Below are positions 20,632 through 21,845 of a stretch of 47,304 bases of DNA, one piece after another (position 1 is the first letter of the stretch; each line of letters begins with the position of its first letter). This DNA comes from Candidatus Zixiibacteriota bacterium (GTDB lineage: Bacteria; Zixibacteria; MSB-5A5; GN15; FEB-12). The DNA lies in contig CP070824.1 of assembly GCA_020344395.1 (NCBI GenBank), positions 2,549,720 through 2,597,023 on the forward strand, in the 5' to 3' direction. The position numbers were made by a program, and so were the translations under genes. Below the pieces are notes generated by a model. The model searched no databases. It saw only the letters and a program-made list of their open reading frames with translations, and was not told the origin of the DNA.

Positions 20632-21207
20632 ATGTCTCTCAGGAACAGAAAAATCCTGATCGGGCTTACGGGCGGAATCGCCTGCTACAAGGTCCCCAAT
20701 CTGGTGCGACTTCTTGTAAAGGATGGTGCCGAGGTCCGCGTGGTTATGACTGAGAGCGCCACCCGGTTCATCACCCCGCTTACCCTGGAGACGGTATCGG
20801 GTCATCCGGTGGCGGTCGAGATGTTCCCCCCGCAGGAGTTTGTGGCCGTGCGACACATAGAACTGGCGAACTGGCCTGATCTTACCGTTATCGCTCCCGC
20901 TACGGCAAACTTTCTCGGCAAGGCTGCGTCAGGGATATCCGACGATTTGCTGTCAACGATCATGTGTGCCGCTACCGGGCCGGTGCTGATGGCTCCGGCC
21001 ATGAATCCCAACATGTGGCACAATCGTACGACTCAGCGGAACTTTAAGTATCTGGTTGAAGAGCTTGGCTGGCAGACGGTTGGACCGTTCGAGGGTGAGA
21101 CGGCAGAGGGCGTGGTTGGGGTCGGTCGCATGGCTGAACCGGAAGAACTGTTTGAAGCTGTCAAGAAATCTCTGCGCCGAAAACCTCCTCAAAAAAAAAA
21201 GTCCTGA
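20632..21207 (+). CDS. coaBC: phosphopantothenoylcysteine decarboxylase part of CoaBC (frame 1)
   Basis: 191 aa in the unshifted frame. This flavoprotein domain decarboxylates 4'-phosphopantothenoylcysteine in CoA synthesis. His75 (RHIELANW) and Asn125 (APAMNPNMW) match the E. coli catalytic residues in number and context. The third, E. coli Cys158 in ACGxxGxGRM, is Glu159 here (AEGVVGVGRM). The frame runs into a TGA four nt after a run of ten A (21191-21200), while the CoaB domain continues in the -1 frame. A -1 shift on A AAA AAG would join 190 residues from here to 214 from the next frame, giving 404 aa, close to E. coli Dfp. Start at 20632 from conserved sequence; coupled to smg. Confidence 0.88.
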   Translation: MSLRNRKILIGLTGGIACYKVPNLVRLLVKDGAEVRVVMTESATRFITPLTLETVSGHPVAVEMFPPQEFVAVRHIELANWPDLTVIAPATANFLGKAASGISDDLLSTIMCAATGPVLMAPAMNPNMWHNRTTQRNFKYLVEELGWQTVGPFEGETAEGVVGVGRMAEPEELFEAVKKSLRRKPPQKKKS

Positions 21208-21237
21208 CCGGTCGTAGGGTGCTTGTAACAGCCGGTC
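21190..21237 (+). promoter_or_regulatory. putative -1 frameshift signal in coaBC
   Basis: C followed by ten A and G (21190-21201). In the upstream frame the codons read CAA AAA AAA AAG, which contains the canonical bacterial slippery heptamer A AAA AAG. TGA follows one codon later (21205-21207). A stem-loop begins 4 nt past the heptamer: GACCGG (21206-21211) pairs with CCGGTC (21232-21237), extended by a T-G pair. The A10 run could also allow transcriptional slippage. Confidence 0.6.
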
Positions 21238-21845
21238 CGTGCCGCGAGCCGGTCGATCCCGTCAGATACATATCCAATCGTTCATCGGGGAAAATGGGAT
21301 ACGCCCTGGCTGAGGCGGCTGTGGCGATGGGAGGCAAGGTGACGCTTGTATCCGGGCCGACATCACTAAACCCGCCGTTGGCCGCAGATGTTGTTGTCGT
21401 GGAGACGACTGACCAGATGCATCGGGCGGTGAGCAAGAGGTTCAGGCGCACTGATCTTCTCATCATGGCGGCTGCACCTGCGGATTTCAGACCGGCGCGC
21501 GTGGCTGAGCAGAAGATCAAGAAACATGCCGCCGCCCAGAACCTTACCCTCAAACCGACTACTGACATATTGCTTTCTCTGGCGGCAAAGAAACATTCGG
21601 GCCAGTTGGTGGTCGGTTTCGCGGTCGAAACCGAAAACGGCCCGGCCAACGCCCGGCGCAAGCTGAAAGAGAAGAACCTGGACATGGTGGTGCTGAACGA
21701 TCCCACTGAGACCGGTGCAGGCTTTGATCACGATACCAATCGAGTCACCATTATCAGGCCCGGCCGAAGGGCTGAAGTGTGGCCGCTGATGGCCAAATCT
21801 GAAATCGCTTACAAACTGCTTGAAAAACTGTCCGGCATGCTTTAG
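21219..21845 (+). CDS. coaBC: phosphopantothenate-cysteine ligase part of CoaBC (frame -1)
   Basis: 208 aa if read from the GTG at 21219; the homologous frame is open from the A10 run (…VLTGRR then VLVTAGPCREPVDPVR). This domain joins cysteine to phosphopantothenate using a nucleotide triphosphate. Intact motifs are SNRSSGKMGYALAEAA, AAPADFRP, VGFAVETEN with the downstream Lys, and LNDPTETGAGF. It is normally fused C-terminal to the decarboxylase. Either it is fused by frameshifting, or made separately from the GTG by re-initiation 11 nt after the upstream stop, or the split is an indel artefact. No strong ribosome-binding site precedes the GTG. Confidence 0.85.
   Translation: MLVTAGPCREPVDPVRYISNRSSGKMGYALAEAAVAMGGKVTLVSGPTSLNPPLAADVVVVETTDQMHRAVSKRFRRTDLLIMAAAPADFRPARVAEQKIKKHAAAQNLTLKPTTDILLSLAAKKHSGQLVVGFAVETENGPANARRKLKEKNLDMVVLNDPTETGAGFDHDTNRVTIIRPGRRAEVWPLMAKSEIAYKLLEKLSGML

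Follow-up and report, generated by a model that had tools for sequence, protein, structure and literature searches.

Among the systems closest to the locus described here, the dnaX gene of Thermus thermophilus carries a run of nine A's on its coding strand, with stops nearby in the other frames, and makes two products, for which length variants of the mRNA suffice (PMC1088944, PMC5009743). Nine A's slip efficiently in vivo at RNA polymerase, and many genomes select against runs this long (PMC1088944, PMC5009743). In Blochmannia and Buchnera, AT-rich endosymbionts with more than 100 long coding A-tracts, frameshifts caused by indels within the tracts have long been retained and the product is restored by transcriptional slippage (PMC3017870). 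A short and a long product are also made from E. coli dnaX, by a ribosomal -1 frameshift at A AAA AAG with a stimulatory stem-loop, and from frameshifted chlD chelatase genes, which supply a short and a long subunit from one gene and have been called ribosomal, with AT-rich slippery sites and downstream structure (PMC9227772).

The coaBC genes of Zixibacteria share with Thermus dnaX a coding-strand A-run, nearby stops in the other frames and, we propose, two products, but their target is a coenzyme A enzyme. Whereas the Thermus gene is in frame, coaBC is in frame or -1 around its A10 depending on the species. As in the endosymbionts, A-tract frameshifts appear long retained; unlike theirs, the Zixibacteria loci are mostly of 37-64% GC, A10 tracts number 2-5 per genome (11 genomes), tract length is near-constant and the indels lie outside the tract. 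The likeness to E. coli dnaX extends to an in-phase A AAA AAG at the locus studied and to a short and a long product, yet what coaBC conserves is ten A's, and neither the phase of the heptamer nor a stem. With regard to chlD, coaBC is a different gene, although an A10 also splits a similar AAA/VWA gene in two Zixibacteria relatives. Our reading, which we consider probable, is that the A10 in the CoaC-CoaB linker is a selected slippage tract at which stuttering of the polymerase would yield both CoaC and CoaBC.

The window, the whole stretch of 47,304 nucleotides that was analysed, belongs to a genome of 3.44 Mb in one contig with an estimated completeness of 84.8%. As the original prediction held, its CoaC and CoaB regions lie in different frames (-1) and meet at C-A10-G. 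The CoaC half matches positions 1-185 of the 392 of the NCBIfam profile TIGR00521 (coaBC_dfp; 3.6e-61, 207.4 bits) and the CoaB half positions 184-391 (1.1e-60, 205.7 bits), each slightly below the full-length cut-off of 219.7 bits, so that the two frames are adjacent halves of a bifunctional CoaBC/Dfp, a flavoprotein decarboxylase followed by a ligase. The CoaB part also matches the CoaB/CoaBC structures PDB 5int, 1u7u and 6tgv, and since the genome has a single DFP match, this is its sole CoaB gene. The A10 is the sole run of A or T of at least nine in the window. Across it, the coaC frame reads CAA AAA AAA AAG TCC TGA, which bears out the prediction of an in-phase A AAA AAG with TGA soon after, and the coaB frame reads TCA AAA AAA AAA GTC CTG ACC GGT and continues to the end of coaB. 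The two frames are joined by one added or two removed A's, and one added A reproduces the predicted CoaBC of 404 residues. Coordinates are collected in the table.

Features of the coaBC junction (positions in the window) and A-tracts in other genes of the window genome and its relatives
Feature	Position	Strand	Remark
coaC, phosphopantothenoylcysteine decarboxylase	20632..21207	+	ORF frame 0, ATG to TGA, 191 aa; free short product
coaB, phosphopantothenate-cysteine ligase	21201..21845	+	-1 frame, open from 21156
A10 tract, proposed RNA-polymerase slippage site	21191..21200	+	junction C-A10-G
A AAA AAG heptamer	21195..21201	+	in phase in the window; phase not conserved
TGA stop of the unslipped frame	21205..21207	+	within CTGACC (Leu-Thr of the coaB frame)
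6-bp stem GACCGG/CCGGTC	21206-21211 / 21232-21237	+	judged incidental
dnaX A10	L201 1501-1510 (G000:C1:875016)		gamma/tau boundary, in frame
mnmE A9/A10	L204 (G000:C1:1298544)	reverse	mnmE in -1
STAS-domain protein A10	L209 (G000:C1:2106705), L305-L334	reverse (L209)	-1 C-terminal extension in window genome

The run is a property of a clade. We compared coaBC junctions over 132 Zixibacteria genomes, 118 of which gave a match. Within f1, the family of the window, and f4, 51 of 58 junctions carry A9-A11 and 46 carry exactly A10, whereas in the 37 scorable junctions from other families of the phylum runs reach A8 at most and none attains A9, species not being independent data points in these counts. 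Lys codons elsewhere in the f1 and f4 coaBC genes are AAA in 56% of cases, so that the three kept AAA codons are not codon bias, which we rule out as the cause of the run; a coding run of at least nine A's is therefore conserved beyond chance and codon bias. The A10 genes comprise 30 that are fused in frame (19 in f1, 11 in f4) and 16, all in f1, that are split in -1. One further split gene bears a run, that of the f1 species G061, in which A11 goes with a +1 relation, the sole such gene not in -1. In G026 the run lies about five codons further downstream, abutting the first core strand, so this tract appears to have moved or to have newly arisen. Losses in several lineages (G017, G062, G063, G031 and G021/G069) show that the run is not indispensable.

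The frame varies around the run. In a maximum-likelihood protein tree of the CoaC and CoaB domains, with the linker excluded, run-bearing genes have changed between fused and split at least nine times. All four sister groups compared have changed frame through an indel that is not in the run: it lies upstream of the run in G018/G036, G004/G032-G075 and G009/G022 and, in G065/G064-G030, one base downstream. The 16 split A10 genes divide evenly, eight and eight, between two classes of phase. These observations bear on the main alternative named in the original prediction, that the split is a sequencing or assembly error in a homopolymer and the true gene is fused. A one-contig genome of this estimated completeness is of an assembly type in which homopolymer undercalling can occur, but A10 recurs in -1 in 15 other species, many of them assembled in hundreds of contigs and on that account assumed to be of short-read origin. 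Most unbroken close relatives share the A10, so that the refuting pattern named with the original prediction, intact relatives without the run, does not hold, and, with states that switch through indels outside the run, an error in homopolymer length cannot explain the pattern; we regard such an error as highly improbable. Much the same can be said of a contingency locus, at which replication slippage on the run would toggle coaB within a population. Long homopolymers drive phase variation in some bacteria, but here the length is nearly always exactly 10 across genera, the state changes by indels outside the run and the gene affected is the genome's sole CoaB gene, all of which makes phase variation a most implausible account.

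Beyond the run, one frame is long and the others stop nearby. Among the 51 run genes, 45 have stops in both non-coaB frames within nine codons of the run; at the same position this holds for 7 of 37 genes of the other families (Fisher p 3e-11, an optimistic value since species are counted as independent). Many of these shifted-frame stops are provided by CTGACC and GGTAAG/GGTAGG, codons for Leu-Thr-Gly-Lys/Arg. A scan for starts after the run found no ATG for CoaB in 16 of 17 run-bearing split genes, and no ATG, GTG or TTG before the first core motif in 14 of the 17. The exceptions are the window genome (G000), with one weak GTG at 21219 that lacks a good ribosome-binding site and no ATG or TTG, G002, with weak TTGs, and G011, with an ATG that overlaps the coaC stop (ATGA); some separate CoaB synthesis is possible in these three. 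They, together with the run-less split genes of G021, G069 and G031, all three of which are separate genes with an ATG for CoaB, are what speaks for two genes with a start of CoaB's own, internal or coupled, and an incidental A10. We hold this to be very unlikely, as it leaves unexplained the general lack of starts, the conservation of A10 and the way in which stops cluster in the two shifted frames. Early stops in both other frames and absent CoaB starts argue instead for one gene, and a shift at the A-run that gives free CoaC and fused CoaBC is the most likely way in which it is expressed. Two products from one gene had been part of the original prediction, and conservation, frames, stops and starts now give it strong comparative support.

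As for the mechanism, the original prediction was that the ribosome shifts to -1 at A AAA AAG, a heptamer followed by a 6-7 bp stem-loop as in dnaX. The heptamer is in coaC phase in 8 of the 17 run-bearing split species, the window included, and out of phase in 9. The predicted stem is present in the window as six base pairs, but is complete in just 2 of the 17 split species; it arises from codons of conserved LTG and AGP residues, and its stability is not above that of shuffles. Folding of the 60 nt downstream of the run gave no structure signal in split genes (mean z -0.16, controls -0.19) or in fused genes (mean z -0.48, controls -0.04). Judged by shuffles and control windows, there is no sign of the stimulatory stem-loop of a dnaX-type -1 frameshift. 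A signal made of heptamer and stem, in which the phase is not conserved and neither pairing nor folding shows a signal, is probably not what operates here.

Slippage of the ribosome to -1 on the A-run is a rival account that we hold to be unlikely. Ribosomes slide on iterated AAA, on as few as three codons, and robustly at A11 (PMC4363877); A10 offers A AAA AAA in any phase, besides the in-phase heptamer of the window. The split is in -1 in 16 of 17 run-bearing genes, a direction favoured by polymerase and ribosome slippage alike. A heptamer does not need ten A's, however, downstream structure gives no signal, the heptamer is as often out of phase as stated above, and a -1 ribosomal shift would not rescue the A11 gene of G061 with its +1 relation. 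A search for the single tRNA-Lys (UUU) reading AAG that goes with E. coli dnaX-type shifting found 34 tRNA loci, and none of the 30 that were checked is a tRNA-Lys; the set is incomplete, and the result is uninformative on ribosomal slippage. We favor transcriptional slippage, the second option of the original prediction, because ten A's rather than seven are kept, the phase of the heptamer varies, structure is lacking and nine A's suffice; RNA-polymerase slippage appears to fit best at the coaBC A10.

In the mechanism that we propose, RNA polymerase would stutter at the A10 and produce mRNAs with 9, 10, 11 or more A's. One class of mRNA would encode full CoaBC and the remaining classes free CoaC with a short tail. 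Where the DNA is fused in frame, slippage would supply the free CoaC; where it is in -1, as in the window, one added A would supply the fused CoaBC. Since all classes would be made regardless, the genomic frame would matter little, and evolution could then have switched between the two states while retaining the A10. We infer each of the three elements from comparison of genes: that slippage occurs, that RNA polymerase is its agent and that both products are used. In the dodecameric CoaBC of Mycobacterium smegmatis, CoaC forms the core and CoaB dimers lie on the outside (PMC7794376), an architecture that makes mixed CoaC/CoaBC assemblies conceivable, and we speculate that such oligomers are the purpose of slippage.

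The class of mechanism is already known; the coaBC target and the clade-wide set of genes appear new, as searches of titles and abstracts and by terms, with subscription journals outside their coverage, found no literature on frameshifting or slippage in coaBC or in Zixibacteria. If our reading is right, a core metabolic gene is routinely expressed through RNA-polymerase slippage in dozens of bacterial species, with a genomic reading frame that is free to vary around a fixed signal, and programmed slippage extends past single cases and AT-rich endosymbionts. The clade would then offer natural replicates for testing the determinants of slippage efficiency, mixed CoaC/CoaBC complexes would be predicted for coenzyme A biology, and automatic annotation would miscall such genes as broken, truncated or separate.

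Pattern searches for A10 in the window genome and ten others (11 genomes) found 4 and 34 runs respectively, 38 in total and 2-5 per genome, of which 33 lie in six recurring genes: coaBC (11), a STAS protein (10), dnaX (6), mnmE (3), a ChlI-like/VWA chelatase-like pair (2) and PP2C (1). The four of the window genome are in coaBC, in dnaX, at the N-terminus of mnmE and in the STAS-domain protein. The A10 of dnaX, at codon 401, comes directly behind domain III; it is in frame, and the shifted frames stop 4 and 7 codons past it. Among the f1 genomes, 15 of the 17 that were examined have an A9 or A10 at the dnaX gamma/tau boundary, as do some genomes of f2 and f3, which looks like slippage of the Thermus type. 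The STAS gene, like coaBC, mixes in-frame and -1 forms around the A10. The recurrence of A10 in six genes, the gamma/tau boundary of dnaX included, indicates a clade-wide use and points to slippage as a regular means of expression, a separate and internally consistent sign. A broader proposal, which we judge evenly balanced between right and wrong, is a transcription-level recoding programme in which an A10 at domain borders (coaBC, dnaX, STAS, ChlI/VWA) or after the start (mnmE) would set a fixed ratio of short to long product, while the downstream frame, being near-neutral, would drift between in-frame and -1. That the tracts have ten A's suggests a length tuned to the RNA polymerase of the clade.

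Further features of these genes were seen along the way. The STAS protein is followed by a conserved C-terminal stretch of about 100 residues without a Pfam match, which in most relatives examined is joined to it or split from it (-1) at the A10. In the window genome, a GTG start overlapping the stop codon of yidC has a frame other than that of mnmE, which is in -1; mnmE has no start in its own frame, with an other-frame GTG or ATG just upstream of the A9/A10, an arrangement also found in G009, G029, G055, G058 and G065. Several f4 mnmE genes (L224, L227, L228 and L234) have an apparent ATT, ATA or ATC start after a good Shine-Dalgarno sequence and no ATG, GTG or TTG nearby, and weak initiation of mnmE may be under selection. 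The pair split in -1 at A10 in G018 and G020 (L275 and L300) consists of a ChlI-like AAA ATPase and a VWA protein and resembles frameshifted chlD. A PP2C phosphatase has an A10 near its C-terminus in G008 (L290), and one in the window genome (L200) has an A9 ahead of a C-terminal hydrophobic, membrane-like segment.
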